Shown: positions 13,051-38,073 of the stretch, one piece after another
How positions within the stretch are numbered: position 1 is the first letter of the stretch
Layout: every line of letters starts with the position of its first letter
Source: Rhodocyclaceae bacterium
GTDB lineage: Bacteria > Pseudomonadota > Gammaproteobacteria > Burkholderiales > Rhodocyclaceae
Length of the DNA: 64,000 bases
NCBI GenBank assembly: GCA_019455325.1
Contig: JACFMQ010000001.1
Span: forward strand, 679,864 to 743,863
Direction of reading: 5' to 3'
The notes under the pieces: model-generated
The model's input: only the letters and a program-made list of their open reading frames with translations
Told to the model about the DNA's origin: nothing
Databases searched by the model: none
Position numbers and translations under genes: made by a program

Positions 13051-13150
13051 CACCTACCGCAGAGGCGCAGAGACGCAGAGATTCGCAGAGGAAAACCGAG
13101 AAAAAGCATTTCTCTGCGTTACCTCTGCGTCTCTGCGCCTCTGCGGTGGA
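13051..13150. repeat. Long imperfect inverted repeat, copy 1
   Basis: The left arm (13051-13091) and right arm (13111-13150) are near-perfect reverse complements built on the core CCGCAGAGGCGCAGAGACGC, separated by about 20 bases. Transcribed, it would form a very stable hairpin. A second copy in reverse orientation lies at 56167-56267. Here it sits between gspE and the next gene, both on the minus strand. It is a dispersed palindromic element; similar CGCAGAGGCGCAGAG-type repeats are known from other bacterial genomes. Confidence 0.85.
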
Positions 13151-13162
13151 CGTTCGCCTTTA

Positions 13163-22624: not shown

Positions 22625-24103
22625 TCAGAAATTGTGGCGCAGCAGCAGGCTGGCCTCCGTCTGCCGGAACCCGAAGGCCCAGTCGAGGTTGCTGCGGTTG
22701 ACGCTGTGCCGCAGCCGCAGCTCGGGCGTCAGCCCGGCGATCTTCCAGGCATTGACGCCCAGGCTGACGATGTAGACCTGCTGGCGGTCGCGGCGCTGCC
22801 CACCGAGGAAGCCGTCGAACGCGTCGTTGCGGCTGAAGCGCAGAATCCCCAGCGCATTGACGAAGACCCCGGCCTCGCCGGGAAAGACGTGGTACAGCCC
22901 GGCACGCAGCGCCAGTTCCTTGCTGCTGGCCTGCTCGACCGCGTGTTTCTTGCGGGTGGCGTCCAGGCCGCCATACACGCTGGTGTTGGCCTGCGGCATG
23001 TAGCTGGCGGAAAGGCTCCACTGGTACTGCGAGTAGTCGGTCGCCATGCGCAGGCCGCGCGAGGTGTGCGCATAGCGCTTGGCATCGAGCATGCTGCCGA
23101 GCTGCCAGCCGTTGCCGAGCGCGCGACTCCATTCCAGTTGCAGGCCGCGCGCCAGGTACTGGGTGTGGCCGTCGCGGTGGTAGTGCTCGGCGTACGGCGT
23201 GACCGCGAAGCTGTCGTGCGCATCCAGCCAGTTGTAGCCCAGGTACAGCATGGCGGTGTTGTTGCTGTAGTCCTCGATCGGCACAGCGCCCGTCGTGTCG
23301 TCACGGCGGTATTGGCTGCCGTAGGCGACCGGCCGCACCTGCAGGTTGTGGTTGCCGCCCAGGTGGATGCGGCGCACGAACGCCAGTTCGTAGTTCGCCA
23401 TGCTCGAAGCGATCGGCTTGGGCATCTTGCGTTCGAACAGGCAGAAATCCTCGACCGCGAGCAGGCAACTGTAATCGCCGCTGGCCTGGTTGATGTTGTC
23501 GTTGCGGCCCACGCCCAGCGCCGCGCTGCCATGCCAGCGGGCCCGCTCGTCCAGCGCCCGCAGGTATTGCTGCGCCATCATCTGCACCTGCTCGGGCAGG
23601 CCGCCGGAAATGGCCTGGGCGAAGGCCGCGCGGGCGGCCCCGTCCTGGTTGTCCTCGAAGCGCAGCCGCGCCAGCTCCAGGCGGATGCGCGCATCCCCGG
23701 GGTCCGCGTCGTGCGCGGCCTGCATGCGGTGTAGCGCCAGCGCGTGGTCGCCCTGCTGGCGAGCGAGCAGGGCCTCGGCCATCGCCACCAGCGCCGGGCG
23801 ATGGTCGCGCAGCAGACGGTAGCGGCTGGTGAATTCGGTCAGGCGCTCCCACTGGCCGGTGTTGATGGCGACGTAGATCGCCGGTTCCAGCGCATCCAGG
23901 CGCGTCGGCACCGTGTAGATCTGCCCTTCGTACACCAGGGCGCCGGGCGGCGCGACCAGTTCGCCCGGCTGCGCGGTGCGGCGCTCGGCGGCGCGGCGCG
24001 CCTGTTCCAGCAGGAAGCGGGTGTCGTCGTCATCGGCATGGACGGCGGGCGTGGCGAGCATGCATAGCAGCACGGCCAGCGCGGCGGAGAAACGGCAGAA
24101 CAT
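22625..24103 (-). CDS. Slam-type outer membrane exporter (TPR plus DUF560 barrel)
   Basis: 492 aa. A signal peptide (FSAALAVLLCMLATPAVHA) precedes an N-terminal TPR region (about residues 90-190; RIRLELARLRFEDNQDGAARAAFAQA) and a long beta-barrel with alternating hydrophobic strands. It ends FRQTEASLLLRHNF with the C-terminal Phe expected of an outer membrane barrel. This is the Slam (surface lipoprotein assembly modulator) layout. Slams move TbpB-like lipoproteins or soluble hemophilins across the outer membrane. It lies just downstream of a hemophilin-like gene and is the only Slam for the two such genes here. SD AGGGGAA is well spaced. Confidence 0.82.
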   Translation of the reverse strand: MFCRFSAALAVLLCMLATPAVHADDDDTRFLLEQARRAAERRTAQPGELVAPPGALVYEGQIYTVPTRLDALEPAIYVAINTGQWERLTEFTSRYRLLRDHRPALVAMAEALLARQQGDHALALHRMQAAHDADPGDARIRLELARLRFEDNQDGAARAAFAQAISGGLPEQVQMMAQQYLRALDERARWHGSAALGVGRNDNINQASGDYSCLLAVEDFCLFERKMPKPIASSMANYELAFVRRIHLGGNHNLQVRPVAYGSQYRRDDTTGAVPIEDYSNNTAMLYLGYNWLDAHDSFAVTPYAEHYHRDGHTQYLARGLQLEWSRALGNGWQLGSMLDAKRYAHTSRGLRMATDYSQYQWSLSASYMPQANTSVYGGLDATRKKHAVEQASSKELALRAGLYHVFPGEAGVFVNALGILRFSRNDAFDGFLGGQRRDRQQVYIVSLGVNAWKIAGLTPELRLRHSVNRSNLDWAFGFRQTEASLLLRHNF

Positions 24104-24142
24104 CGGAATTCCCCTGACAGGAAAGGGGTTGGGAAATAGAAT

Positions 24143-24165
24143 GGAGGCCGGCGGAGCCGGCCTCC
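24143..24165 (-). terminator. Hairpin between hemophore gene and slam
   Basis: A 10-bp perfect stem with a 3-base loop (GGAGGCCGGC and its complement), between the first hemophilin-like gene and slam. A T-rich stretch (ATTCTATTT) follows on the minus strand. It could be a leaky terminator that lowers slam expression relative to its substrate. The same hairpin occurs at 30908-30930. Confidence 0.55.
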
Positions 24166-24198
24166 ATGTGTCACATCACTTTCCTACTGGCGCACGCC

Positions 24199-25101
24199 TC
24201 ACCGTTTGCCACCGAAAGCGACGTTGCCGCTGGCTCCGCCACCCGTATAGATGCCGGCCAGGGCATTGGCGTTGTTGTAGAAGCGGCCTTGGATGGTGCC
24301 GGGGTTACCTCCCGGACCATTGCCGAATTCACCAGTGCTCTTGATGCTGGTGCCGGCAAAGCTCACGCTGTCGCTGCCGCGGACGATCGAACCCGTGATC
24401 GAGCCACTGCCGCCAGAGTAGTTCGCCACCAGCGCCCCGGTGTACAGGTCAGGCGCATACGGCTGGTTGCCGGCGCTGGTGCCCACGCCGCGGATGCCCA
24501 CCACGTTGTAGGTCACACTGGTCAGCGTCGGCATGCTGGTCGTCGGGTTGTCGCCCACGTACCAGACGGTGCGGCCGCTGCTGCCCATGTTCAGGTCGGT
24601 GCTGGGCGCAGGCAGCGCACCGCCGGTACGTGCCGGCGACCATTCGCCGAAGTACACGCCATCGGTGTTGCCGGTGCCGGCCACGCGGCCGATCACCAGG
24701 CCGCCGAAGTGCGGCCAATTGGCTGCCGTCGGGTAGCTCAGTTGGCGCAGGCTGAAGGTTTCCGCCGTCGCGTTGTAGCTGGTGTCGGTGCGCCACACTT
24801 GCGCGATGTTGGGCATCAGCAGCGGAATGCCGGCGATGTAGGTGCCGTTCGTGTTGGCCGTGGCCGCAGTGGTAGTCAGCGTCACCGGCGCGCGCAGCGG
24901 GATGAAGCCTGAGAAGTTCCCGTCGTTGCGCTTCATGCTGAGCGCGGCATAGCCATCAGGGGCAATGATGGGAATGCTCGGGAAATCCGAGGTGCCTGCC
25001 AGGACGTTGGCGGTATTCGAAGAGCCGCCTGCGGGCGCGGCCCAAGCGGCGGACGTGCCGATCACGGCCAGAACGGCTGCGGCGATCAATTGCGTTTTCA
25101 T
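24199..25101 (-). CDS. Secreted hemophilin-like protein, copy 1 (predicted Slam substrate)
   Basis: 300 aa, with SD AAGGAG before ATG. The signal peptide MKTQLIAAAVLAVIGTSAAWA has an AxA-type cleavage site and no lipobox Cys, so the protein is soluble or secreted rather than a lipoprotein. The mature part is Gly/Thr/Asn-rich. The C-terminal portion (FYNNANALAGIYTGGGAS, ending VAFGGKR) resembles the small beta-barrel of TbpB-like and HphA proteins that Slam recognises. It sits between an STN-type TonB receptor and slam, as in HphA/HphR/Slam loci. Haem binding is inferred, not shown. It shares WPHFGGLVIG, GVYFGEWSP and STDLNMGS with copy 2. Confidence 0.65.
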   Translation of the reverse strand: MKTQLIAAAVLAVIGTSAAWAAPAGGSSNTANVLAGTSDFPSIPIIAPDGYAALSMKRNDGNFSGFIPLRAPVTLTTTAATANTNGTYIAGIPLLMPNIAQVWRTDTSYNATAETFSLRQLSYPTAANWPHFGGLVIGRVAGTGNTDGVYFGEWSPARTGGALPAPSTDLNMGSSGRTVWYVGDNPTTSMPTLTSVTYNVVGIRGVGTSAGNQPYAPDLYTGALVANYSGGSGSITGSIVRGSDSVSFAGTSIKSTGEFGNGPGGNPGTIQGRFYNNANALAGIYTGGGASGNVAFGGKR

Positions 25102-25186
25102 AAAAAGACTCCTTGCGAGTTGGTTGAGGGAAACGCTGGTTTTTTCAGAAAAAACCAGCAAAAAATTCTGAAATCCGGTACGGGCG

Positions 25187-28100
25187 TCAGAAGCGCAGCG
25201 TCACGTCGAGCATGGTGGTGCGGCCTGGCGCGGGCGCGGTCAGGCGGGTCAGCGGGTCCATGTAGTAGCGGTTGGTCAGGTTGTCCACCGACAGGCGTAC
25301 GGTGGTGTCGCGGCCGATGCGATACTCGGCGTACAGGTCGAGCAGCGTGACCGGGTCCCAGAAATAGGGGCGGTTGTTGCCGCTCAGGCCAAGGATAGGG
25401 TAGGCGTAGCCATTGGCGGCCCAACCGCCGCTCTGGTGCCGGCTTAGCATGCGCTCCATTGTTTCGTTCTCGGCCTTGCTGTGGTGGCGCACGCGCATGC
25501 CGAGGTCCAGCTTGCGTTCCAGCAGGCGCGTGCCGAGGTCGAGGTTCACCGAATACTGCGGCTGCAGGGTGGAGTAGGACAGGGTGCCGATCAGGCCGCC
25601 GTCCATGCACTCGGGTACACGGTTGTAGTGCGGGTCGAGCATGACGGCGTAGTCCTTGTCGCACATCTTCTGCTGGAGGCGGTAGGTGACGCCGAGGTTG
25701 CCGTAGAAGCGGCCGGTATCGAAACGCCCTTGCAGTTCGATGCCGCTGCTGATCTTGCGGTCGAACTGCATGGTGATCAGCGAGATGTTGCGGTCGTAGT
25801 AGTCGTGAATGGTGTTGTGGTAGTAGGCCAGTTTCACGTCCGCCTTATCCACGCCGCGCAGCAGGCCGCCGAGGTCGTGGTGGTAGCCGATTTCCCAGGC
25901 GTCGTTGCGCTCGGGCCGGCTTTTCATGTTGGCGAATTCCGTGCTGGCATACCCCAGGCGGTTGGCGGTTTCCAGCAGGCTGGCGAAGCGCGCCATGCTG
26001 GCGAAACGGACATAGGCGCGGGAACGCTCGGCCAGCAGATAGGAGGCCACCAGTTGCGTGCTCCAGGCCGTGGATTGTTGCCGCTGCGGACGCTTCCAGG
26101 GGTTGACGGCCGCGTTCGTGACATAGTTATAGCCGTTTCCATGTGCAGGAGTTACAGCCTTGTACTTGTCGTAAGTGCCGGGAACGGTGATGGCGGAATA
26201 ATTGGTGGCCCAGTCCTGCCCTGTAGGATCAGTGACGGTTTCCTTGAGATCGATACTGCCGTTGTAGAACGGATTCTGATTGCGGTCGGCCTTGCCGTTA
26301 TTCAGCGGTACGGGATTGTCGATCTGCGCATACAGGAGGCCGGTGTTGTTGCCATCGCTATCCCAGTCCCACTCAATCACGCCCGGCATGTTGTTGGCGG
26401 CTTTATAGGCTTCCCATTCCTGATACCTGTTCGGGTCTGAAGACATCGCTATCTCTTCGGCGCTCATCAAGCGCATCACCTGCACGTTCTGCGCCACCGC
26501 CTCGTTGCGCAGGCGCCATTCCTCGGTCTGGGCGGCGCGCTGTTTTGCGGTTTCGTCGTCGAAACCCCAGTAGCCGCCGTAGCGCACGCCGGCGCTCAGT
26601 TGCAGGCGGTCGGTGGCCTGCCATTCCAGGTTGGCGCTGACACCGTACTCGCTGCGCCGCCCCGAGGCAGGGCCGTAGGCCTGGGCCAGCGAGCCGTTGA
26701 GGATGACGGCCACGTCCGTCACCGGCTTGTTGTCGCGCACTTCCTCATACTGGTAGTCGGCAGCGGCGGTGAGGCTGAGGCGCTCGCTCAGGCGGAAGCG
26801 GTTGCTGATGTCGAAGCCGGTGCGCACGGCATGGCTGTCGATGCGGTTGCCGATCTTCAGGTTGTAACGGCCGCCGGTGTTGGGTTGGCGCTCGGGGGCC
26901 GGGCCGCCGGGCGTGACGCCGGGGCAGTACATCTCGTAATACCAGGGCATGCTCTCCCTGACCTCCAGCAGGCTCCGGTCGTAGTTGCATTGCGTGTACT
27001 GGTCCCAGGCCCTGTCGCGATCGGTCACGCCATAGGCGTAGTCGCCCGACTGGTAGCGGCTGCTCCTGCTGTCGGTACGCCACAGGTTGGCTTCGAGGTC
27101 GAGCAGGCGCGAGCCGGCGGGCTTGAGTTCGTAGCCGAGGCGCCAGATGTCCTGTTTGACGGTGGTGTCGGGATTGGGGTATTCGAGGTGGGTGTTGGCG
27201 TTGTCGATGCCCCGCCAGTCGTCGCCGGCGGCCTTGTTGACGAAATAGTCCACGATGGGCACCGGCAGCTCGCCGAATTGCAGGTTGTTGCGGGTATAGC
27301 CAAAGCTCAGTTTCTGGCCCTGGTCGATTTTCCAGTTGCCCTTGAACAGGTAGCTTTCGGTATGGCTGCTGGTGTAGGGCACCTCGTATCCGGCCGGGAA
27401 TACCAGGGCGATGTCCGGGTACATGTTGCGGGTGTTGCTCACGCCGATCTGGCCGCGGTCGGTGTTGCCGGCGTAGCTGCCCGCTCCTTTCTTGCCGGCG
27501 TAGTAGTTGCCGCGTTTCTGGTCGCTGTAGGCGGCGAGGATGTCGAAGCGTTCGTGCTGGTGACCGCCGGCAATGAAGATGTTGTAGGCATCGCCGTTGA
27601 AGCTGGAGCCGCCGCTTTGGCGCTGGCGCGTCGGCGGTTCGTAAAAACCGACGCCGGGCGTGCCGAACAGGGTGTTGCCGCCAGCCGCCCCCGGGATGTC
27701 GCGGTAGTCCCGGCCCTCGAAACTGTGCGCGTCGAACGATGGCTTGAGCGAGTTGTTGGCGGTGCCGAGCTTGATCTCGGCCCCCCAGCTCTTGCCGGGT
27801 TCGATGATGTCGGTGGCGTCGATGGTGCGGATGCTGACCGAGCCGCCGACACCGCTCTTGATGCCGCGCGTCATCGACGGGCCTTTTTCCACCTCGATGC
27901 TGCGGAACAGGTTGGGATCGACGTAGCTGCGGTTGCTGATGCCATGCACCGCCTGCCACACGTCCAGCGACTGCACCGTGCCATCCACTGTGATGGGAAT
28001 GCGGCCATTGCCCGAAAATCCCCGGATGATGGGCGACAGCGCCGAGCCGTTGCGGTTGTCGATGTTGTACACGCCGTTCGTGCCCGCGAACACGTCGCCA

Positions 28101-28672
28101 GTGGATACGCCCTTGTAGCGTTCCATGTACTTGCGGTCGACGTACAGGTTGGAAATGTCCTTCTCATAGACGTTGTCATGCCCGATTTCATCCCGGGTAC
28201 GCTGGCCGGAGACCACGACGCTCTTCAGTTCGGTCGCATTCCTGCCGTCCTCGCCCGAGATATCCGGCAGCACCCGCCGCAGCACGTAGCGATCGCCTCC
28301 CGTGGCAACGGCCTCCAGACCGCTGCCGGCGAGCAGTTGCCGGAAGCCCTCGCCCACCGGATAGCTGCCCCGCACGCCGCCGGAATGCCGCCCCTGCACC
28401 GCCGCCGCATCGAAGGAGAGCAGCACGCCCGCCTCCCGCGCAAAACGGTTGAGCACCTGGGCCAGCGGGCCAGGCCCGATGTCATAGCTACGCACGCCCT
28501 GCTGCTGCGCTCTCTGGCCGGCAGGCATGGTCTGCGCATGGCTCTGGCTTTCGGGCAGGAAGGCCGCCACGATGCACAGCAGCGTGGCGTTGAGGCGGAT
28601 GTTTCGCCATCCACGGAGAGAAGACCTGTCCGTCGAAAATGGCGTCATGCAGGGTCGAACTGCTCTAGGCAT
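25187..28672 (-). CDS. STN-type TonB-dependent receptor, copy 1 (haem/hemophore)
   Basis: 1161 aa. The start has GGAG five bases upstream. An N-terminal signal region (residues ~25-46) precedes an STN signalling domain (about 60-142: SYDIGPGPLAQVLNRFAREA...RYVLRR), a plug (NVYEKDISNLYVDRKYMERYKG, EVEKGPSMTRGIKSGVGGSVSI), and a long 22-strand barrel ending TTMLDVTLRF. The size and plug resemble large hemoglobin/hemophore receptors of the HphR type. The STN domain indicates signalling to a FecR-like anti-sigma factor; fecIR lies at 36.5-38.0 kb. The adjacent hemophilin-like gene is the likely ligand donor. Confidence 0.85.
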   Translation of the reverse strand: MPRAVRPCMTPFSTDRSSLRGWRNIRLNATLLCIVAAFLPESQSHAQTMPAGQRAQQQGVRSYDIGPGPLAQVLNRFAREAGVLLSFDAAAVQGRHSGGVRGSYPVGEGFRQLLAGSGLEAVATGGDRYVLRRVLPDISGEDGRNATELKSVVVSGQRTRDEIGHDNVYEKDISNLYVDRKYMERYKGVSTGDVFAGTNGVYNIDNRNGSALSPIIRGFSGNGRIPITVDGTVQSLDVWQAVHGISNRSYVDPNLFRSIEVEKGPSMTRGIKSGVGGSVSIRTIDATDIIEPGKSWGAEIKLGTANNSLKPSFDAHSFEGRDYRDIPGAAGGNTLFGTPGVGFYEPPTRQRQSGGSSFNGDAYNIFIAGGHQHERFDILAAYSDQKRGNYYAGKKGAGSYAGNTDRGQIGVSNTRNMYPDIALVFPAGYEVPYTSSHTESYLFKGNWKIDQGQKLSFGYTRNNLQFGELPVPIVDYFVNKAAGDDWRGIDNANTHLEYPNPDTTVKQDIWRLGYELKPAGSRLLDLEANLWRTDSRSSRYQSGDYAYGVTDRDRAWDQYTQCNYDRSLLEVRESMPWYYEMYCPGVTPGGPAPERQPNTGGRYNLKIGNRIDSHAVRTGFDISNRFRLSERLSLTAAADYQYEEVRDNKPVTDVAVILNGSLAQAYGPASGRRSEYGVSANLEWQATDRLQLSAGVRYGGYWGFDDETAKQRAAQTEEWRLRNEAVAQNVQVMRLMSAEEIAMSSDPNRYQEWEAYKAANNMPGVIEWDWDSDGNNTGLLYAQIDNPVPLNNGKADRNQNPFYNGSIDLKETVTDPTGQDWATNYSAITVPGTYDKYKAVTPAHGNGYNYVTNAAVNPWKRPQRQQSTAWSTQLVASYLLAERSRAYVRFASMARFASLLETANRLGYASTEFANMKSRPERNDAWEIGYHHDLGGLLRGVDKADVKLAYYHNTIHDYYDRNISLITMQFDRKISSGIELQGRFDTGRFYGNLGVTYRLQQKMCDKDYAVMLDPHYNRVPECMDGGLIGTLSYSTLQPQYSVNLDLGTRLLERKLDLGMRVRHHSKAENETMERMLSRHQSGGWAANGYAYPILGLSGNNRPYFWDPVTLLDLYAEYRIGRDTTVRLSVDNLTNRYYMDPLTRLTAPAPGRTTMLDVTLRF

Positions 28673-28694
28673 TGCGGCTCCGAAAGAAGTAATG

Positions 28695-28713
28695 GTTAAT
28701 GAGAACGATTACT
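28695..28713 (-). promoter_or_regulatory. Fur-box-like site before receptor 1
   Basis: GTTAATGAGAACGATTACT matches the 19-bp Fur consensus at 13 positions and lies 23-41 bases before the receptor start. Related sites precede receptor 2 and fecI, supporting iron control. Matching was done by eye. Confidence 0.55.
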
Positions 28714-28777
28714 ATCAGAAGGACACGCGAGCGAAGCCGAAAGTGCACCTCGGGGCCAAACAAATTGCTAAATAAGC

Positions 28778-28803
28778 AGTGATTCAATGCTGAAGAAGGG
28801 GAA
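28778..28803. repeat. 26-bp direct repeat, left copy, bounding the AbiE module
   Basis: AGTGATTCAATGCTGAAGAA plus GGGGAA, identical to 30831-30856. It lies directly upstream of receptor 1's promoter. The pair brackets the abiE genes exactly. The stretch from here to the AbiEi start (about 290 bases) holds no gene I can support, only the abiE promoter region. Confidence 0.85.
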
Positions 28804-29018
28804 CCGGCACCGTCAGCGGACGCTCCCCGGGCCCTTCAGAGGCCGGCGTGACAGACTGCAAGGGAGCGTTGCCGGCCTTGGGCCGCCGTGCCGCCGATTT
28901 GCAATCCGTTCAAAGCATCCTGGCCGACGGGGGATACGTCGGCCGGCCATTTGCTCAGGCCGTTGAGGAACTTCCAATCAGAAGATCGTGACCAGGCTAT
29001 TAGAAAGTTCTCAATTAT

Positions 29019-29033
29019 CGTAGCTTGGCTACG
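29019..29033. promoter_or_regulatory. Palindrome upstream of abiEi
   Basis: CGTAGC-TTG-GCTACG, a perfect 6-bp inverted repeat in an AT-rich stretch 57 bases before the AbiEi ATG. AbiEi antitoxins autoregulate by binding inverted repeats in their promoter, so this is a candidate operator. Confidence 0.5.
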
Positions 29034-29089
29034 GTTCAATATATCAATCCAAATTGACGGCCATTTGGGAAAGGTGCTTCAATCGCAGC

Positions 29090-29827
29090 ATGGCTACGAC
29101 TGGAACAAGCAAGCTAAATGCGCTCTACACCCGCCTGGCCCCGGGAGCGCCGCTGACCTCGGAAGACTTGGCGACCCTGGGTATCTCGGCGGACCTGGCC
29201 GTGCACTACGTGCGCGCCGGCTGGCTCACGCGCCTGACGCGCGGGGTGTTCTGCCGTCCCAACGACGCCCTGGCGCTGCATCCGAGCCTCGTGCTGCTGC
29301 AGCGCCGGTTCGAGGGGCTGCACGTGGGCGGCAAATCGGCGCTGGACTGGTACGGCGTGCGCCAGTACGTGGCGCAGCAGCCAGTGCTGCAACTCTACGG
29401 CTGGGCGGCCGGGAACCTGCCGGGGTGGTTCACCGAGCGCTTTCCGGCAGAGTACCGCCGCAAGCGCCTGTTCGACGAGCAGCCGGACGCCTTGCTGTAC
29501 GTTGCTCCCTTCGAGAAGCGCAGCGGGGCGCCGAAAGTGTCGGCGCCGGAGCGCGCACTGCTGGAACTACTGAGCGACGTGGGTGTGCGCCAGCCACTGC
29601 AGGAGGCTCGTGAACTCGTGGAAAGCACCTACAACCTGCGCGCCGATGCGCTGCGCGAGTTGCTGCAGCGCTGCACGAGCGTCAAGACCGTGCGGCTGTG
29701 CCTACAGCTCGGCCGCGAGGCGTCGCTGCCCTGGGCGGCCAGGCTCGACCCGGCCACGCTGCCGACGGGCAGCGACCGGCCCTGGGTGTCCCGATCGGCC
29801 GACGGCCTGCTGGTGCTCAAGCCATGA
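29090..29827 (+). CDS. abiEi: AbiEi-type antitoxin (type IV TA)
   Basis: 245 aa from the ATG at MATTGTSKLNAL; an in-frame TTG at 29054 is less likely. An N-terminal winged helix (residues ~5-60, with YVRAGWLTRLTRGVFCRP) precedes a C-terminal domain with GGKSALDWYGVRQYV and SAPERALLELLSDV, both typical of AbiEi. It represses its own promoter and counters AbiEii without direct contact. Its stop overlaps the toxin start. The pair runs opposite to the surrounding iron genes. Confidence 0.9.
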   Translation: MATTGTSKLNALYTRLAPGAPLTSEDLATLGISADLAVHYVRAGWLTRLTRGVFCRPNDALALHPSLVLLQRRFEGLHVGGKSALDWYGVRQYVAQQPVLQLYGWAAGNLPGWFTERFPAEYRRKRLFDEQPDALLYVAPFEKRSGAPKVSAPERALLELLSDVGVRQPLQEARELVESTYNLRADALRELLQRCTSVKTVRLCLQLGREASLPWAARLDPATLPTGSDRPWVSRSADGLLVLKP

Positions 29828-30756
29828 ACCCGGTCTATCTCGATACCGCGCGCCTGCTGACGCAGGTGGCGCCGCAGGTGTTCGTGGATGACACCTTCGC
29901 GTTGAAGGGCGGCACGGCGATCAACCTGTTCGTACGTGACATGCCGCGCCTGTCGGTAGACCTCGATCTGGTCTTTCCTGACCACACGCTGCCGCGCGAC
30001 GAGGCGCTGGCGCGCATCAACGACGCCATTCGGCAAGCGGCCGAGCGCTTGAGGAAGCGCGGCTTCCAGACGCACGCGCCGGCGGCGGCAGTCGGTGAGA
30101 CCAAGCTGCTGGTGCGCCGTGGCGCCGTTCAGGTGAAGATCGAAGTGAACTTCGTGATGCGCGGCACCGTGCTGCCGGTGCGCCATGCGTCGCTCACGCC
30201 GGCCGCCCGCGACGTGCTGATGGCCGACCTGGAGATTCCGGTGGTGTCGCTGGAGGACGTGTACGGCGGCAAGCTGGTCGCGGCGCTGGACCGGCAGCAT
30301 CCGCGCGACCTGTTCGACGTGATGAAGCTCTTTGCCCACGAGGGCATCACACCAGGCATCCGGCGCGCTTTCGTGGTCTACCTGGCCAGCAGCAACCGGC
30401 CGGTGCACGAAGTGCTGTTCCCGCCGCTGCGGGACATTCGCTACGACTACGAACACAACTTCCTGGGCATGACGGCCGAGCCGGTGCCGCTGGAGGCACT
30501 GCTGGCCACGCGCGAGCGGCTGATGCAGGAGATCCAGCAGGGGTTGGATGACGACGAACGGCGCTTCCTGCTGTCGCTGGTTGCCGGCATGCCCGAGTGG
30601 GCGCTGCTGGGCATCGGCCACCTCGAACATCTGCCGGGCGTGCGCTGGAAGCTGCAGAACCTGGCGCAGCTTCGGAAGAAGTTTGCGGAGCAGGCCGACG
30701 TGCTGGCCACGCGGCTGGCGGCGATACCCGCCAATGCGAGCAAGCCGGCCGGTTGA
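29824..30756 (+). CDS. abiEii: AbiEii nucleotidyltransferase toxin
   Basis: 310 aa. The nucleotidyltransferase core is intact: FALKGGTAINLF (Lys28, GGT 29-31) and SVDLDLVF (Asp46, Asp48), then KIEVNFVMRG and the LEDVYGGKLVAALDRQHPRDLFDVMKL segment typical of AbiEii/DUF1814. It overlaps abiEi by four bases. The pair is a phage-defence/plasmid-stability type TA system and appears functional from sequence. Confidence 0.92.
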   Translation: MNPVYLDTARLLTQVAPQVFVDDTFALKGGTAINLFVRDMPRLSVDLDLVFPDHTLPRDEALARINDAIRQAAERLRKRGFQTHAPAAAVGETKLLVRRGAVQVKIEVNFVMRGTVLPVRHASLTPAARDVLMADLEIPVVSLEDVYGGKLVAALDRQHPRDLFDVMKLFAHEGITPGIRRAFVVYLASSNRPVHEVLFPPLRDIRYDYEHNFLGMTAEPVPLEALLATRERLMQEIQQGLDDDERRFLLSLVAGMPEWALLGIGHLEHLPGVRWKLQNLAQLRKKFAEQADVLATRLAAIPANASKPAG

Positions 30757-30830
30757 TCCGCTCCGCGATCGGCGATGGCGCTGCACCTGCTGCGGTGCGC
30801 CTGAGATTGCGGGCTCGCGGCTCCCAAGCA

Positions 30831-30856
30831 AGTGATTCAATGCTGAAGAAGGGGAA
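30831..30856. repeat. 26-bp direct repeat, right copy
   Basis: Identical to 28778-28803. On the minus strand the bases beyond it (30857-30870) read ATTCTCTGCCGC, which resembles the slam start ATGTTCTGCCGT. Unit 2 therefore keeps a vestige of a second slam start with ATG changed to ATT. Confidence 0.8.
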
Positions 30857-30907
30857 GCGGCAGAGAATTGGAATTCCCCTGACAGGAAAGGGGTTGGGAA
30901 ATAGAAT

Positions 30908-30930
30908 GGAGGCCGGCGGGGCCGGCCTCC
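30908..30930 (-). terminator. Hairpin after hemophore gene copy 2
   Basis: The same 10-bp stem as at 24143-24165, with one loop base changed and a T-rich stretch after it on the minus strand. With no slam following, it would act as a terminator for the unit-2 transcript facing the abiE genes. Confidence 0.55.
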
Positions 30931-30963
30931 AGATGTCACATCACTTTCCTGGTGGCGCACACC

Positions 30964-31839
30964 TCACTGTTTGCCACCGAAAGCAACATGGTTGCCGGCT
31001 CCGCCACCCGTATAGATGCCGGCCAGGGCTGTGGCGTTGTTGTAGAACTGGCCTGTGGCACCGTTGCCTGAAAACGTGCCGTTGCCATAGATGGTCGAGT
31101 TGATGCCGACGTTGGCATCGCCCGTACGGCTCAGGGTGCCGGTCAGTGCGTTGGCGCTGCCGCCCGACACGTAGTTGGCGGTCAGGGTGCCAGAGTACAA
31201 CTGCGGCGAGTGCGGCAGGTTGCTGCCGACGCCGGTCTGGCGGATGCCCACCACGTTGTAGGTCACATTGGTCAGCGTCGGCATGCTGGTCACGGCGTTG
31301 TCGCCCACGTACCACACGGTGCGGTCGGCGCTGCCCATGTTCAGGTCGGTGCTGTCACCCTGATTCGGCGTGCCGCTCACGGGCGGCGACCACTCGCCGA
31401 AGTACACCCCGCTGCCCGCCGCCATGCCCTTGACCTGGCCGATGACCAAGCCGCCGAAGTGCGGCCAACCGGTCTGCGTCAGATACCTGACCTGGCGCAG
31501 GCTGTAGACGTTGGCCACGGCGTTCTGGTTGTTGTACCAGACCTGGGCGATGGGCAGCCCGTCACCGGGGAACGGCGCGTAGAACGGCCCCGCCTGGTTC
31601 GCCGTCGCGGCGCCGGTCACCTGGGTGATCGGCGCGGCGGCAATGTTGACGTAGCCAGACATGCTTCCGTCGTTGCGCAGCATGCTGATCCCGGCGTAGC
31701 CGGTCGGCGCTCCGGGCGGGAAGTCGGACGGACCGACCTGCACGTTGGCCGTGTTCGAGGAACCGCCCTGCGCCGCCGCAAAGGCAGGTGCGGCAGCGGC
31801 GAGGGCCAGTACGGCGGTGGCAATCACTGTCATTTTCAT
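30964..31839 (-). CDS. Secreted hemophilin-like protein, copy 2 (predicted Slam substrate)
   Basis: 291 aa, with AGGAGA before ATG. The signal peptide (MKMTVIATAVLALAAAAPAFA) has an AxA cleavage site and no lipobox Cys. It shares with copy 1 the N-terminal QGGSSNTANV-type start, the central WPHFGGLVIG and GVYFGEWSP blocks, STDLNMGS, RTVWYVGDN, and the C-terminal FYNNATALAGIYTGGGAG. The first ~110 residues differ most, which may mean a different ligand or receptor pairing. Export presumably uses the single Slam encoded at 22.6-24.1 kb. Confidence 0.65.
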   Translation of the reverse strand: MKMTVIATAVLALAAAAPAFAAAQGGSSNTANVQVGPSDFPPGAPTGYAGISMLRNDGSMSGYVNIAAAPITQVTGAATANQAGPFYAPFPGDGLPIAQVWYNNQNAVANVYSLRQVRYLTQTGWPHFGGLVIGQVKGMAAGSGVYFGEWSPPVSGTPNQGDSTDLNMGSADRTVWYVGDNAVTSMPTLTNVTYNVVGIRQTGVGSNLPHSPQLYSGTLTANYVSGGSANALTGTLSRTGDANVGINSTIYGNGTFSGNGATGQFYNNATALAGIYTGGGAGNHVAFGGKQ

Positions 31840-31912
31840 GGCATTTCTCCTGATGAAAGGTTGAGTGCTGCAACAATCTGGTTTTTCAAGAAAAACCAGC
31901 AAAAATCTGAAG

Positions 31913-34900
31913 CTAGAACCTGAACACGGCGTCCAGCATCACGGTGCGGCCCGGCCCCGGCACCGCCGCCTTGTTCAGCGGGTCGAGGTAGTAGCGGTCG
32001 GTGAGGTTCTCCACCGACAGGCGCAGCGTGGTCTTGCGATCGAAGCGGTACTCGGCGTACAGGTCGATGAGCTTCACCGGGTCCCAGTAATAGGGGCGCA
32101 CGGTGGCGGAGGTAAAAATCAACTGGTAGGCGTAGCCCTGCGCGCCGCCGCCGTTGTAGTGCCGCAGCAGGCGGTCGAGCTTGTCGTTGTCGGCGCTGCT
32201 GTGGTAGCGCAGGCGCATGCCCAGGTCCAGCCTGCGCTCCAGCAGGCGCGCGCCGAGATCCAGGTTGATCGAGTATTTCGGCTGCAGGCTGGCGAAGGAC
32301 AGGGTGCCGGGGAAGCCGCCCGGCAGGCATTCGGGCACGCGGCTGTAGTGCGGGTCGAGGAACACCGCGTAGTCCTTGTCGCACATCTCCTGGCGCTTGC
32401 GCCAGGTGGCGCCCAGGCCGCCGTAGAAGCGGCCGGTGTCGAAGCGGCTCTGCAGTTCGAGGCCGCTCATGATCTTGCGGTCGAACTGGATCATCGCCAT
32501 GTTGAGGGTGCGGTCGTAGAAGTCGTGGATGGTGTTGTGGAAGTAGCTCAGCTTCACGTCCGCACGCCGCAGTTCCGGCAGCAGGCCGCTCAGGTCGTAG
32601 ACGTAGCCGACCTCCCAGGCGTCGTTGCGCTCGGGCCTGGGCGAGGAATACTCGAACTCCCCGCCGAGGCCCGTCCGGTTGGCCGCCTCGAGAATGCTCG
32701 GGAAGCGCGGCATGCTGGAATAGCGCGCATACACCCGGGCGCGCTCACCCAGCAGGTAGGAGGCGGCGAGCATGTGCGACCAGGCATGCGCGCGCTGCGT
32801 TTCCGGGCGCCTCCACGGCTCGCCGGAGGTTTGATAGACGAAGCTGCCCCCGAAACCCGGTACTCCCGGTCGGTATTTCTTGAAGGTTCCGGCAACCCCT
32901 TGCGGGTTCTCCACCGTCTCGTTCAGATCGATGCTGCCGTTGTGGAAGGGATTCTGGCCGCTGTCCGGCTTGCCGTTCTGCAGCGGCACCGCGGCGGACA
33001 TGAACCAGTATTGAAGGCCCGTATTCCTATCGGTCCACTGCGAGGTGATGTTGTTGGCCTTCTTGTAGTCATCAAATGACTGCTGCACCGGAAGACTGGC
33101 GGCGAGGGCGATCAGATAGGCATCCCACTCAGGCCCGGCCTGAACCGTCCCTCCCGTTGCCGTCAGCCAATCCATAAACGCTGTCGACGTAGCATTGGAC
33201 AAAACCCCGAGGGCGGCCATCGTCGCCATTTCGTCATTGCTCACCACGCGGTAGTAGTCCACTCTCTGGTGCGTATACACAAGCTTGCTCTCCCACAGTT
33301 CATTGCGCTCGGCGCGGCGCTTGTCCAGTTCGTCGTCGTACACCCAGTAGCCGCCGTAGCGCGCCCCGGCGCTCAGTTGCAGGCGGTCGGTGGGCCGCCA
33401 TTCGGCGACGGCGCCGGCGCCGTATTCCTGCCGCCGCCCGGAGGCCGGGCCGAACTTGGAGGGCGCGAGGCCCACGCCCATGACCGAGGTTTCGATCGGC
33501 ACGTAATCCTTCTGCCGTTCGTACTGCCAATCGGCGGTGGCGGTCAGAGCCAGGCGGTCGGTGAGGCGGAAGCGGTTGCTCATGTCCACCCCGCTGCGGG
33601 TGGAGCGGGTCTGGATTTCGTTGCCGATGAACACCGTGTACTGGTCGTCGGTATTCGGCGTCTTGGCCGGTTCCGGGGTGCCGATGAGGGCGGGGTTGGA
33701 GCAGAAGGCACCACCGTTGCAGCCCACCCAGTAATCCCAGGCGAAATCCTTCGCCAGCACCTGATAGGTGAAGTCACCGTTCTGGTAGCGCCGGTTCTTG
33801 CTGTCCGTCTGCCACAGCCCGAGGTCGAGGTCGATCCAGCGCGAGCCGGCCGGTTTCCACTGGTAGCCCAGGCGGTAGATGTCCTGCTTGACGGTGGTGG
33901 CCGGAAAGGGGTACTGGATGACCTCCTTGCCCTTGTTTAAATAAATGTCGTGGTCCAACTGGTAGATGTAGTCGCCCGTCAGGGCGGACGGCTGCTCGGC
34001 GAAGGCCAGGTCGTTGCGGGTGTAGTTGAAGCTGAGCGTCTGGTCGTTGGGCAGCCTCCAGTTGTTCTTGAGCACCAGGCTTTCGGCCTCGGTGTGGGTG
34101 TAGGGCACCTCCCAGCCGGGTGCGAACAGGCGGGCGATATTGGGGTACAGGTTCCGCGCCCTTTGCTCCTGCCCGGCGCCGGCGAGGCCGTTGTACATAT
34201 AGCTGCCCGCCCCGTTCTTGCCGGCGAAGTAGTTGCCGCGACGGGCGTTGCTGTAGGCGACCAGCACGTCGAAGACATCATGCTTGTAGGCGCCGGCGAG
34301 GAACAGCTTGCGGTCGTCCAGGTTGAACAGGCGGCTGTCGCTCCGGCTGCGCAACTCGGCCTGCGGCTGGTAGAACGCCAGCCCGGGCGTTCCGAACGGA
34401 GAGGCGGCGATGGCGCCGGGAATGTCGCGGTAATCCTTGCCGACCAGGCTGTAGGCATCGGTGGAATCCTTGATCGAGTTGCTGGCGGTGCCCACCTTCA
34501 GCTCCATCCCCCAGTTCTTGCCCGCCTGGATGATGTCCTCGGCGTCGATGGTGCGGATGTTCACCGAGCCGCCGATGCCGCTCTTGATGCCGCGCGTCAT
34601 CGACGGACCTTTTTCCACCTCGATGCTGCGGAACAGGTTGGGGTCCACATAGTTGCGGTTGTTGATGCCCTGCCGTCCCATCCACACGTCGACGGACTGC
34701 ACGGTGCCGTCGACCGTCACCGGAACACGGCCGTTGCCCTGCAGGCCCCGGATGTTGGGAAAGAGCGCCGCGCCGTTGCGGTTGTCGGAGTTGTAGACGC
34801 CGTTCATGCCGGCGAAGACGTCGCCGGCGGACACGCCGCGATAGCGATCCAGGTACTGACGGTCGACATAGGCGTTGGAAATGTCCTTCTCATAGACGTT

Positions 34901-35398
34901 GTCATGCCCGATCTCGTCCCGAGTACGCCGGCCGGTGACCAGAACGCTCTTCAGTTCGGTCGCACTCTTGCCGTCCTCGCCCGAGATATCCGGCAGCACT
35001 CGCCGCAACACGTAGCGATCGCCTCCCGTGGCAACGGCTTCCAGACCGCTGCCGGCGAGCAGTTGCCGGAAGCCCTCGCCCACCGGATAGCTGCCCCGCA
35101 CGCCGCCGGAATGCCGCCCCTGCACCGCCGCCGCATCGAAGGAGAGCAGCACGCCCGCCTCCCGCGCAAAACGGTTGAGCACCTGGGCCAGCGGGCCAGG
35201 CCCGATGTCATAGCTACGCACGCCCTGCTGCTGCGCTCTCTGGCCGGCAGGCATGGTCTGCGCATGGCTCTGGCTTTCGGGCAGGAAGGCCGCCACGATG
35301 CACAGCAGCGTGGCGTTGAGGCGGATGTTTCGCCATCCACGGAAGGAAGACCTGTCCGTCGGAAACGGCGTCATGCAGGGTCGAACTGCTCCAGGCAT
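31913..35398 (-). CDS. STN-type TonB-dependent receptor, copy 2 (haem/hemophore)
   Basis: 1161 aa, exactly the length of copy 1. Residues 21-142 (signal region and STN domain) are identical to copy 1. The plug is similar (NVYEKDISNAYVDRQYLDRYRG, EVEKGPSMTRGIKSGIGG), while the barrel and its loops are strongly diverged. It ends TVMLDAVFRF. It lies downstream of fecI-fecR on the same strand and 73 bases before its own hemophilin-like gene. A shared STN with different barrels suggests both report to the same FecR while binding different ligands. Confidence 0.85.
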   Translation of the reverse strand: MPGAVRPCMTPFPTDRSSFRGWRNIRLNATLLCIVAAFLPESQSHAQTMPAGQRAQQQGVRSYDIGPGPLAQVLNRFAREAGVLLSFDAAAVQGRHSGGVRGSYPVGEGFRQLLAGSGLEAVATGGDRYVLRRVLPDISGEDGKSATELKSVLVTGRRTRDEIGHDNVYEKDISNAYVDRQYLDRYRGVSAGDVFAGMNGVYNSDNRNGAALFPNIRGLQGNGRVPVTVDGTVQSVDVWMGRQGINNRNYVDPNLFRSIEVEKGPSMTRGIKSGIGGSVNIRTIDAEDIIQAGKNWGMELKVGTASNSIKDSTDAYSLVGKDYRDIPGAIAASPFGTPGLAFYQPQAELRSRSDSRLFNLDDRKLFLAGAYKHDVFDVLVAYSNARRGNYFAGKNGAGSYMYNGLAGAGQEQRARNLYPNIARLFAPGWEVPYTHTEAESLVLKNNWRLPNDQTLSFNYTRNDLAFAEQPSALTGDYIYQLDHDIYLNKGKEVIQYPFPATTVKQDIYRLGYQWKPAGSRWIDLDLGLWQTDSKNRRYQNGDFTYQVLAKDFAWDYWVGCNGGAFCSNPALIGTPEPAKTPNTDDQYTVFIGNEIQTRSTRSGVDMSNRFRLTDRLALTATADWQYERQKDYVPIETSVMGVGLAPSKFGPASGRRQEYGAGAVAEWRPTDRLQLSAGARYGGYWVYDDELDKRRAERNELWESKLVYTHQRVDYYRVVSNDEMATMAALGVLSNATSTAFMDWLTATGGTVQAGPEWDAYLIALAASLPVQQSFDDYKKANNITSQWTDRNTGLQYWFMSAAVPLQNGKPDSGQNPFHNGSIDLNETVENPQGVAGTFKKYRPGVPGFGGSFVYQTSGEPWRRPETQRAHAWSHMLAASYLLGERARVYARYSSMPRFPSILEAANRTGLGGEFEYSSPRPERNDAWEVGYVYDLSGLLPELRRADVKLSYFHNTIHDFYDRTLNMAMIQFDRKIMSGLELQSRFDTGRFYGGLGATWRKRQEMCDKDYAVFLDPHYSRVPECLPGGFPGTLSFASLQPKYSINLDLGARLLERRLDLGMRLRYHSSADNDKLDRLLRHYNGGGAQGYAYQLIFTSATVRPYYWDPVKLIDLYAEYRFDRKTTLRLSVENLTDRYYLDPLNKAAVPGPGRTVMLDAVFRF

Positions 35399-35420
35399 TG
35401 CGGCTCCAGAAAGAAGTAAA

Positions 35421-35439
35421 GTTAATGAGAACTGTTACT
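35421..35439 (-). promoter_or_regulatory. Fur-box-like site before receptor 2
   Basis: GTTAATGAGAACTGTTACT matches the Fur consensus at 12 of 19 positions, at the same distance from the start as the site in unit 1. The 35501-35770 stretch beyond it holds no complete gene. Confidence 0.45.
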
Positions 35440-35642
35440 ACTTGGAGGACACGCGAGCGAAGCCGAAAGTGCACCTCGGAGCCAAACAAATTGCTAAATA
35501 GTCCGCCCTGAACGACCCGCAACTCATTGATCCGGCGTGCGGTTTGTCGGGTTGATGGGAACGGGATTTGCGAGGTATGGTTTTACCCGAGTGAGTTTTC
35601 TTGCAAATTCCTCCGAGGACCGGGCGCGGCATTCCCGAGCCT

Positions 35643-35753
35643 GTGAAGGTGCTCCTGCAAATCACCTATGGGACCGACAAGCAGGCCGCAGCAGCCGTCG
35701 CCAAGCTGCGCCGGGAGACTACGGAAGCCGAGTTCCTGACCCGCTTCTTGTGA
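35643..35753 (+). other. Small open frame, possible gene remnant
   Basis: 36 residues from GTG (VKVLLQITYGTDKQAAAAVAKLRRE...FLTRFL), in a lower-GC stretch between receptor 2 and the XRE gene. It could be the C-terminal scrap of a lost gene. I do not recognise the family. Confidence 0.2.
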
Positions 35754-35771
35754 CCGGCGCGCTCGACGGGA

Positions 35772-36053
35772 TCAGGCAGCTTCCAGCACCCGCATTTCAA
35801 TGTGGAGCCCGGCCGCCGCTGCCATGTTCACCAGAGCATCGAGGCCGAACAGATTGATCTTGCCGCGCAGCAAGTCCGAAACACGGGGCTGCGTCACGCC
35901 AAAGAGCTTGGCGGCCTGCGCCTGACTCATTTTCGTGCGGGCGATGTGGTTCTTCAGCGCCATCATCAGCATAGAGCGCAGCTTCATGTTTTCCGCTTCT
36001 TCCGGGGTGTCCTCGATGGCATCCCAGACATTGGTAAATTTCTGATTGCTCAT
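35772..36053 (-). CDS. XRE-family antitoxin (HigA-like)
   Basis: 93 aa. A helix-turn-helix at about residues 40-65 (KMSQAQAAKLFGVTQPRVSDLLRGKI) is typical of the short XRE/HTH antitoxins paired with phage Gp49-like HigB toxins. The start overlaps the end of the upstream toxin frame, the reverse (toxin-first) order usual for HigBA. The toxin is broken, so the antitoxin may be orphaned. Confidence 0.85.
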   Translation of the reverse strand: MSNQKFTNVWDAIEDTPEEAENMKLRSMLMMALKNHIARTKMSQAQAAKLFGVTQPRVSDLLRGKINLFGLDALVNMAAAAGLHIEMRVLEAA

Positions 36054-36404
36054 TGACCCACCTCCTTCAACAAGTCGCGGTAGCGTTTGCCCACCAAGTC
36101 CAAATCAGCTTTGCTGGTCTTCTCCGTCTTTTTCTGGAAGCAGTGCAAAACGTAGACCGCAGCAGCAAATTTTGCGATGTAGATGACACGGAACGCCCCA
36201 GCCACATCTCGAATCCGAATCTCCTTCACGCCTTGACCCACGGTATTCATGGGCTTCCAGTCGTCCGGCTCCAAACCATTCTGCACTCGGTCGAGTTGAT
36301 GACCTGCTTCCCGCGGCAGTAAGCGGGAAGGCGCGAAGGTCATCAAGGGAACTGCCCCTGAACTCGATGGGTTTGCCATCGTGCAACGGCATGACACTGA
36401 CCAT
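36050..36404 (-). pseudogene. HigB/Gp49-like toxin with internal frameshift
   Basis: The family reads as two frames. The N-terminal part runs from ATG 36404 (or 36392) as KPIEFRGSSLDDLRAFPLTA. The rest lies in another frame as REAGHQLDRVQNGLEPDDW, then VKEIRIRDVAGAFRVIYIAKF and the end KRYRDLLKEVGQ. Joined, they give a full-length phage-derived Gp49-like toxin (about 110 aa). The break is near 36318-36325, a net change of +1 or -2 bases within GCCGCGGGAA. A sequencing error in this GC-rich spot is the alternative. Confidence 0.75.
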
Positions 36405-36507
36405 ACAAAATTTTATATAGGCTCACAAGCCGCTTGCTTTCATCGTGACCCGCCAACGAATCCCGCAAGGTCGATCTCACCGTTGATGAACCGCTGTCCG
36501 TCGGAAA

Positions 36508-37482
36508 TCAGAGAGAGGCGTCGCCCCTCGCCTCGCGCGGCAGCACCTTCGCCCAATAGCGGGTGAGGTAGCGCACCTGGACGGGGAAGACGTCCGGCAG
36601 CATGGCCAGCGCCTTGTCCGTATCGTCCAGCGGAAACACCCCGGATACGCGCAGCCCGGCAAGTTCGGGGGCGCAGCCCAGGTAGCCCTTGCGGTAGCGC
36701 GCAAGCTCGGACACGAAGTCCTGCAGGCGCATGTCGACGACGCTCAGCCGCCCCTCCCGCCAGGCCCCCGCCCCTGCCGGCTGCGGCCGCGGCATGCCGG
36801 TGCTGCGGCTGTCGAAGACGGCCTCCTGCCCTTCGACGAGGCGGACGGCGGGCGCCATCGACAGCACCGGGCTCACCTCGACGGCATCCTGCAGCACCTG
36901 GACGCTGGAATGCCCGTCGTACAGCCTGACCACGAAACGCGTCCCCAACGCCCGCACCCTGCCGTGCGGGGTATGCACGACGAACGGACGCGCGGGCCCG
37001 GCCGCATTGTCCGGCCGCGTTTCGATCAGGATTTCTCCGGCGCGCAGCAGGATCGCGCGTTCGTCGCGGCTGAACGCCACGTCGACGGCGCTGTGCGTGT
37101 TCAGGTACAGCAGCGAACCGTCTGCGAGCACTTCCCGCCGCTGTTCCCCGGTGCCGGTCCGAAGATCGGCGAGCCATTCCTGCGCGGGCAGCCGGCGCCA
37201 GGTTTCCGCCCCCGCCAGGCCGGCGCAGACCACCACCGCCACGCCGCGCAGCACGGCGCGCCGGGATGCCTTCTTTTGCGCCAGCACCGGAGAAGCGAAC
37301 TTGCCGGGAACCTTCTCGAACAGGCTGCGTATCTCCTGAATCCGCGCCCAGGCCTGCTGGTTGGACGGGCTGGCGTCGAGCCACTGCTGCCAGCGGCAAT
37401 GGTCCCGCTCGGTGGCGTCCTCCGCCTGCAGGCAGGCATACCAGAAGGCGGCTTCCTCGATGGGGGTGGAAGGCTTGCTCAT
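36508..37482 (-). CDS. FecR-type anti-sigma / signal transducer
   Basis: 324 aa from ATG at MSKPSTPIEE. A cytoplasmic N-terminal DUF4880 region (EEAAFWYACLQAEDATERD...WQQWLDASPSNQQAWARI) precedes one membrane helix (RRAVLRGVAVVVCAGLAGA, about residues 83-101). The periplasmic FecR domain follows (GTGEQRREVLADGSLLYLNTHSAVDV; PHGRVRALGTRFVVRLY), with a C-terminal DUF4974-like segment. It senses a loaded receptor through the STN domain and controls the FecI-type sigma factor encoded 31 bases upstream. Confidence 0.92.
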   Translation of the reverse strand: MSKPSTPIEEAAFWYACLQAEDATERDHCRWQQWLDASPSNQQAWARIQEIRSLFEKVPGKFASPVLAQKKASRRAVLRGVAVVVCAGLAGAETWRRLPAQEWLADLRTGTGEQRREVLADGSLLYLNTHSAVDVAFSRDERAILLRAGEILIETRPDNAAGPARPFVVHTPHGRVRALGTRFVVRLYDGHSSVQVLQDAVEVSPVLSMAPAVRLVEGQEAVFDSRSTGMPRPQPAGAGAWREGRLSVVDMRLQDFVSELARYRKGYLGCAPELAGLRVSGVFPLDDTDKALAMLPDVFPVQVRYLTRYWAKVLPREARGDASL

Positions 37483-37513
37483 GCCTCGGCCCGGAGAAAG
37501 GCGGCTTTCCGCG

Positions 37514-38029
37514 TCACGGCAGCATCGCGCTGCAATGCACCATGGCGCGCGCCACGTAGTTCTTGACGGTGCGCAGGGAAACGCCGAGGCGTTCGGCGAT
37601 CTGCGCATACGGCAGCTCCTCGAACTGGGCGAGCACGAACGCCAGTTTGACCTTGCGGCCCAGGCCGTCGAGCATCTGGTCGATTTCCAGCAGCGCCTCC
37701 TTCATCAGCGCCTGGGTTTCGAGCGAGGGAATGTCGTCCTGGGGCAGGGTCGCCAGGACTTCGAGGTAGGCGCGTTCGATCGACTGGCGGCGATAGAAGT
37801 TGACCAGCAATCGCCCGGCGACGGTGGCCAGGTAGGCCCTCGGCTCGCGCAGCGCCAACTGCGTGCCGGCATGGGCACACAGCACGCGGATGAAGGTGTC
37901 TTGCGTCAGGTCGTCGGCATCGGCCTTGTTGCCCATCCTGGCACGCAGCCAAGCGCTCAGCCAGCGGTGATTGTTCTGGTAAAGCGCTGCGACATCCCGC
38001 GCGAGCATGTCAGCGTCGGTCGTTTCCAT
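37514..38029 (-). CDS. FecI-type ECF sigma factor
   Basis: 171 aa from ATG at METTDADML; an in-frame TTG at 38056 would overlap the Fur-box-like site and is less likely. Region 2 has ADDLTQDTFIRVL and region 4 has LPYAQIAERLGVSLRTVKNYVARAM, as in iron-starvation sigma factors. It probably directs transcription of the two STN-type receptors downstream. Start choice is the least certain part, since no strong SD is seen. Confidence 0.9.
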   Translation of the reverse strand: METTDADMLARDVAALYQNNHRWLSAWLRARMGNKADADDLTQDTFIRVLCAHAGTQLALREPRAYLATVAGRLLVNFYRRQSIERAYLEVLATLPQDDIPSLETQALMKEALLEIDQMLDGLGRKVKLAFVLAQFEELPYAQIAERLGVSLRTVKNYVARAMVHCSAMLP

Positions 38030-38054
38030 GAGGAGGTGGCGAGCCTTTACAGAC

Positions 38055-38073
38055 AATAACGATTCGCATTATA
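38055..38073 (-). promoter_or_regulatory. Fur box upstream of fecI
   Basis: On the minus strand TATAATGCGAATCGTTATT matches 14 of the 19 Fur consensus positions and has the GCGAATCGTTAT core common before fecI-type genes. It lies just upstream of the chosen fecI start, fitting iron repression of the whole island. Confidence 0.7.

Follow-up and report, generated by a model that had tools for sequence, protein, structure and literature searches.

A hemO-type locus in a Rhodocyclaceae genome that probably sets two receptor–hemophore cassettes of separate ancestry behind one signalling circuit and one exporter

Introduction

The gene table of the hemO locus of Acinetobacter baumannii lists an extracytoplasmic function (ECF) sigma factor, an anti-sigma factor, hphR, hphA and hsmA (PMC10483418). 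In an A. baumannii record, a sigma-70 factor, a DUF4880 protein, a TonB receptor, a transferrin-binding-like protein, a DUF560 protein, TonB and a haem oxygenase stand in a row, where the transferrin-binding-like protein is the hemophilin and the DUF560 protein is Slam. The flanking fecIR genes were taken in 2011 to suggest Fec control of haem internalization (PMC3224125), and a FecI-FecR-TonB-HemO cluster has been described (PMC5382811). The basic wiring of FecI, FecR, receptor, hemophilin and Slam is thus already known from Acinetobacter. Here we describe a stretch of 64,000 nucleotides from a Rhodocyclaceae bacterium that is a relative of Thauera (assembly GCA_019455325.1, contig JACFMQ010000001.1, positions 679,864 to 743,863; hereafter the window), which probably holds a hemO-type locus in which one cell-surface-signalling circuit and one exporter serve two receptor–hemophore cassettes of separate ancestry.

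The gene order sigma factor, anti-sigma factor, receptor, hemophore and Slam is common to A. baumannii hemO and the window, and the A. baumannii receptor, too, scores above the Pfam cut-off for STN. By tblastn, the A. baumannii proteins and those of the window are 37% (FecI), 26% (FecR), 30–31% (receptors), 31–32% (hemophores) and 24% (Slam) identical. A preliminary description of the window had taken the wiring of duplicated hemophore/receptor pairs to a surface-signalling sigma factor to be undescribed; as a point of novelty the wiring fails on hemO, with the same order, an STN receptor and Fec control already suggested (PMC3224125).

Results

Gene content of the locus

The locus is transcribed on the minus strand in the order FecI, FecR, a HigB/HigA-type pair, receptor 1 (W1), hemophilin-like protein 1, receptor 2 (W2), hemophilin-like protein 2 and Slam. 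The FecI-type ECF sigma factor (37514-38029; 171 aa from its ATG) is over the Pfam cut-off for Sigma70_r2 and Sigma70_r4_2; in NCBIfam it reaches 184.2 bits for PRK12528 (cut-off 184) and 188 bits for the FecI equivalog, below the cut-off of 260. The FecR-type anti-sigma factor (36508-37482; 324 aa from a start codon picked by homology) matches FecR (8.8e-20) and DUF4880 (2.6e-11), both over cut-off. Receptor 1 (31913-35398) and receptor 2 (25187-28672) are each 1161 aa long, with STN, plug and barrel domains over cut-off. Slam (22625-24103; 492 aa), an outer-membrane exporter of the type 11 secretion system (T11SS), matches SlipAM (7.1e-31, 108.2 bits; cut-off 22) and TPR_Slam (2.6e-16, 60.4 bits; cut-off 35.2), and is the sole SlipAM match in the 4.46-Mb genome. 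The preliminary description had named the FecI/FecR pair, the two STN-type TonB receptors and Slam from the letters alone; the profile searches bear out all of these.

The two small proteins are hemophilin-like. Hemophilin-like protein 1 (30964-31839; 291 aa) and hemophilin-like protein 2 (24199-25101; 300 aa) both have a signal-like start and no Cys, and protein 2 has a single His. Against NF041636, the NCBIfam family of Slam-dependent cargo with a curated cut-off of 80 bits, protein 2 scores 84.7 bits and protein 1 scores 73.8 bits, just under the cut-off; the Pfam families HphA_N and HphA_C score below cut-off. A cargo profile built without HphA (alignment A3) retrieves 8glo (1.2e-13) and 7re4 (4.9e-11) from the PDB, and its four PDB sequences at E < 0.001 comprise three named hemophilin and one TbpB-like solute-binding protein. 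A match to 7re4 at 2e-60 obtained through alignment A2 was discarded as circular, because A2 contains HphA. When we searched Foldseek with a hemophore model, which is weak (mean pLDDT, the predicted local distance difference test score, of 49, and weakest in the N-terminal half), places 1–4 were A. baumannii hemophilin, the best at 5e-8. A receptor model of mean pLDDT 40 was set aside. Similarity of the cargo to solved hemophilins is present in both sequence and fold, and the earlier reading of these proteins as hemophilin-like cargo holds.

Separate ancestry of the two units

To place the two units, we compared them with related loci in two trees, one with 14 receptors and the other with 13 hemophores. 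The body of receptor 1 is nearest to Pseudothauera (barrel identity 75–76%; L034 76%, L035 75%), as is hemophore 1 (71–74%), and the nearest relative of both the receptor 2 body and hemophore 2 is Thauera sp. Sel9 (L033; barrel 83%, hemophore 87%). In contrast, the barrels of the two units are only 53% identical to each other, and the hemophores 56%. In the receptor tree, W1 groups with L034/L035 and W2 with L033, each with support 100/100; in the hemophore tree, the corresponding groups have support 94/97 (not starred) and 96/96. A W1+W2 clade is rejected by the approximately unbiased (AU) test for receptors (p-AU 5.7e-6) and hemophores (p-AU 2.4e-45).

The DNA of the two units is not equally diverged throughout. 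Between the promoter and roughly codon 160 of the receptor, unit 1 and unit 2 are 87–100% identical; identity is then 46–83% over the gene bodies, and is back at 87% around the hemophore end and the spacer that follows. The STN cores of W1 and W2 are 100% identical with barrels at 53%, an excess of 47 points that is the largest among 45 pairs, a comparison confined to pairs in which both receptors have an STN domain (the four receptors without one are excluded); the remaining pairs have a mean excess of 3 points (standard deviation 12, largest 31). Pairs of the same type have no such excess: STN and barrel are 80% and 83% identical between W2 and L033, and 66% and 75% between W1 and L035. In our reading, cassettes were exchanged at a conserved locus and the front end used for signalling was homogenised recently; the order and direction of events are ones we infer.

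These data bear on whether the units arose by in-place tandem duplication of one receptor–hemophore pair and then diverged. The near-duplicate spacer, promoter and STN segments would fit such an origin, and a whole-unit tandem does exist in Sel9: locus L049 (432-15371 in G773) holds two FecI-FecR-receptor-Slam units in tandem, each receptor with its own FecI-FecR, with STN domains 25% and barrels 35% identical. However, the bodies of W1 and W2 each group with genes of other species, a clade of the two is rejected by the AU test, and their barrels are closer to those relatives than to each other; we consider this origin very improbable. The units had at first been called duplicated, which holds for the promoter/STN segment and the hemophore-to-Slam spacer, but not for the gene bodies.

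We considered, but do not claim, a Thauera origin of FecI-FecR and a Pseudothauera origin of Slam. FecI and FecR of P. nasutitermitis (G733) are 81% and 72% identical to those of the window, a little under the 86% and 75% of Sel9. The window Slam is nearest to those of L034 and L035 (79% and 75%), at a tree fork that is not starred. The two Slams of Sel9 are nearly identical to each other, and therefore the Sel9 Slam may itself be a replacement. Slam identities and tree exclude the Slam of the second L049 unit, whose frame runs for only 84 aa from its start; no hemophore was detected in that unit.

Distribution of related loci

Matches to the cargo were counted in sets of genomes (each count includes the window's own genome). 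An eight-row hemophore profile has matches in 5/297 genomes of the family and 2/369 of the class, a two-row profile in 1/200 genomes of the order, and NF041636 in 16/369 genomes of the class. The six genus mates among the genomes listed have no match to the eight-row profile. When genome contigs were searched with the profile of the two-row alignment, five named loci were found. Sel9 (G773) and G728 have three hemophores each, at separate places. Among the loci examined, only the window combines two cassettes with a single FecI-FecR and a single Slam; two G728 contigs stop just past the hemophore, so the genes downstream lie outside this comparison. Among the papers listed by literature searches, no title or opening of an abstract mentions a two-cassette locus, although full texts, including those of recent hemophilin papers, may hold one.

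Signalling domains and a shared candidate promoter motif

An ECF sigma factor, a FecR anti-sigma factor and STN receptors, each over its Pfam cut-off, are all present in the locus. Across the receptors compared, an STN domain is found in all 10 that have FecI-FecR in their locus and in none of the 4 that do not (agreement 14/14). One of the 10, that of L035, has its FecI-FecR about 12 kb upstream, beyond an insert. In the stretches examined around the four receptors without STN, no FecR was found; L034 has a weak ECF match (31%) and no FecR. For L034 and L036, the Pfam scan covered only the part downstream of where the missing STN would lie, and a tblastn search of both loci for an STN gave no match.

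An alignment of the upstream regions of five STN receptors has a 27-bp conserved block and, after it, a Fur-like one. Upstream-region alignment and a genome pattern search place this candidate FecI promoter motif at 35447-35473 before receptor 1 and at 28721-28747 before receptor 2, both on the minus strand and both without a mismatch. With up to two mismatches, the motif occurs at two places in the window's genome (G000), each just upstream of a receptor, with no further copies; it occurs at one place each in G773, G728 and G733 and at none in G757. A reversed-pattern control has no matches in any of the 5 genomes. In the three relatives that carry the motif, the window FecI has matches that are 82–87% identical. 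Its best-scoring match in G757, where the receptor lacks STN, is 48% identical, and others there reach up to 53%.

For Fur-like sites, we scanned the 64-kb window with a 19-position Fur consensus. At least 12 of the 19 positions match at 14 places. The best in the window (14/19) is upstream of fecI at 38055-38073; others lie upstream of receptor 1 (35421-35439; 12/19) and receptor 2 (28695-28713; 13/19, one of two overlapping sites there). Ten more lie elsewhere in the window, including one where hemophore 1 begins. Taken together, these data support, without proving, that the 27-bp motif is a candidate FecI promoter under Fur control.

The ligand

Haem is a plausible ligand of the cassettes, judging from sequence comparisons. 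Among solved structures, HasR is the best match to both receptors, the profile without HphA retrieves hemophilins, and a haem-type TonB receptor gene, over two NCBIfam cut-offs, adjoins the locus and runs divergent from fecI. An alternative with the same circuit and exporter is that one cassette or both take a ligand other than haem, or that haem is bound otherwise; we consider this unlikely though not negligible. HphA ligates haem through H43 and H106 (PMC8560813). The H43 position is Ala in both hemophilin-like proteins and hemophore 2 has its one His; in G728, L052 (57-869) encodes a hemophilin-like protein without any His, beside a set of FecI, FecR and STN receptor. At the position of HasR H189, receptor 2 has His and receptor 1 has Gln, and neither receptor has a counterpart of HasR H603; we take H189 and H603 to be haem-binding residues. 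For the TonB-hemin receptor family TIGR01785 (cut-off 316.85), receptor 1 scores 238.0 bits and receptor 2 scores 206.5 bits, both below cut-off. The genome has no match to haem oxygenase PF01126 or HemS PF05171, the two haem-degrading families searched for. Against these points, His131/His127 of the hemophilin-like proteins adjoin the H106 position, and the hemophilin of H. haemolyticus binds haem by one His (PMC8560813). The proteins here may bind haem by a single His in the same way.

At 39092-45420, the haem-type TonB receptor gene is followed by one for a CobN/HmuS-like protein of 1314 aa with a signal-like start and a hydrophobic C-terminus. This protein scores as CobN in NCBIfam, whereas its best PDB match is the HmuS dechelatase (7e-126, versus 3e-116 for CobN). 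Its role is ambiguous: together with the receptor it could form a pair for haem dechelation, or it could be a cobalt chelatase.

Inserts and borders of the units

The preliminary description had placed two tandem units between FecI/FecR and Slam, with everything on a single strand. FecI, FecR, the receptors, the hemophores and Slam are indeed all on the minus strand, but two toxin-antitoxin pairs break the run. The HigB/HigA-type pair (35772-36397, minus strand; Gp49 3.1e-23, HTH_37 3.6e-22) lies between FecR and receptor 1, and an AbiEi/AbiEii type IV pair on the plus strand (29090-30756; AbiEii 5.9e-44, AbiEi_3 1.8e-40) separates unit 1 from unit 2. The AbiE pair is framed by a direct repeat of 37 columns (35 identities) with an exact 21-nt core at 28778 and 30831, as if it had been inserted or could be excised (28778-30851). 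The open reading frames at 29629-30960 (minus strand) and 28888-29613 (plus strand) were rejected as spurious: they overlap the AbiE genes and have no family match (28888-29613 against Pfam and NCBIfam, 29629-30960 against NCBIfam only).

After hemophore 1, 114 nt (30851-30964, minus strand) repeat the hemophore-to-Slam spacer that follows hemophore 2, as seen in a 114-column alignment, and run on for about 18 nt into a Slam start that lacks the ATG. A G+C-rich inverted repeat is present in this spacer in both units (24104-24199, 30868-30964) and might keep the expression of Slam lower than that of the hemophore. In P. nasutitermitis (G733), L069 has an insert (2881-13820) in the same gap between FecR and STN receptor as the HigBA-type pair of the window; it contains an AbiE-type pair (DUF6088, AbiEii), a ShlB-type transporter gene, a 1807-aa open reading frame and an integrase-like fragment. 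The PutA gene that follows downstream looks unrelated.

The borders raise the possibility that only one unit functions, the other being a remnant or redundant. Such decay would agree with toxin-antitoxin inserts at the unit borders, with the Slam stub after hemophore 1, with the similar AbiE and integrase-fragment inserts in G733, and with the Sel9 unit that has no detected hemophore. Both receptors and both hemophores, however, are intact open frames, and both units carry the 27-bp motif mismatch-free; we regard this explanation as improbable.

Discussion

The locus model starts from what is established directly, namely the gene identities, the separate ancestry of the cassette bodies, the near-identity of promoter and STN, and the presence of the motif at these two genomic places only; FecI control, the sharing of Slam and the ligand are the parts of the model that we infer. 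In iron starvation, fecI-fecR and both units would be released from repression by Fur, as the Fur-like sites suggest. Each hemophilin-like protein would then exit via the one Slam, capture its ligand, most likely haem, and pass it to the adjacently encoded receptor, as the pairing of the genes suggests. The STN domain of the loaded receptor would signal to the shared FecR, freeing FecI, and the freed FecI would transcribe both units from the same 27-bp promoter, a step suggested by the exclusivity of the motif and its co-occurrence with FecI. Because the STN cores are identical, either ligand should induce both units, as in an OR gate.

Several points weigh against this model. The hemophore 1 branch (94/97) falls below the starred support level, the AU test presumes a group named beforehand, and the trees have long branches. 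STN identity is well above barrel identity, by up to 31 points, for cross-type pairs of other genomes too, and therefore fast barrel evolution may account for part of the contrast. The motif matches the five aligned regions by construction, and the informative part is that there are no other copies. The genome has 28 FecR matches, which looks like an unusually large set of surface-signalling loci, and cross-talk is therefore possible. Export of both cargoes by one Slam is assumed, and the bis-His pair of HphA is not intact.

A bolder reading, which we hold as tentative and on balance doubtful, is that the locus is a natural cassette array. Modules of receptor body and hemophore from deep, separate lineages would pass from species to species through recombination at conserved flanks, with the promoter and STN ahead of the module and the hemophore-to-Slam spacer after it, and two would be kept here behind one front end that gene conversion holds identical. 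Either ligand would induce both modules, a natural counterpart of the PupB/PupA chimeras, and the ligands may differ from haem.

If the locus model of two cassettes behind one circuit is true, it shows how bacteria can extend a sensor circuit that they already have to a new scavenger and its receptor while keeping only the signalling domain and the promoter constant. With its two inputs, the locus would also be a natural test case for the modularity of signalling domains, and for one Slam serving two cargoes. The haem-ligand pair of HphA is lost in this hemophilin branch, and therefore the ligand is a directly testable question.

Compared with A. baumannii hemO, which has one receptor–hemophore pair, the window has two pairs and two toxin-antitoxin inserts. 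TonB and haem oxygenase follow Slam in hemO, whereas none such follows the window Slam, and HphA has the H43/H106 haem pair that the window proteins do not share. One circuit and one exporter common to two unlike pairs looks new, a known hemO-type circuit in an arrangement unmet elsewhere in our sample. The Xenorhabdus HrpA-HrpB-HrpC and Haemophilus hemophilin loci also have a soluble C-terminal-barrel cargo, a Slam-type exporter and a TonB receptor (PMC8406197); in contrast to the window, a term search of PMC8406197 for FecI, FecR and sigma had no hits, and neither had one of PMC12282271 for sigma and Fec terms. The Serratia has system (HasI, HasS, HasR, HasA) likewise joins a hemophore and an STN receptor to a sigma/anti-sigma pair, and its HasR is the nearest solved receptor to those of the window, but HasA is secreted via HasD/HasE without a Slam, and there is one pair (PMC9249621). 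In the Pseudomonas PupA/PupB chimeras, a grafted signalling domain reroutes the receptor signal: after the swap, a receptor with a different specificity signals to the same PupI/PupR (PMC9249621). Unlike the window locus, the chimeras are laboratory constructs of siderophore receptors.

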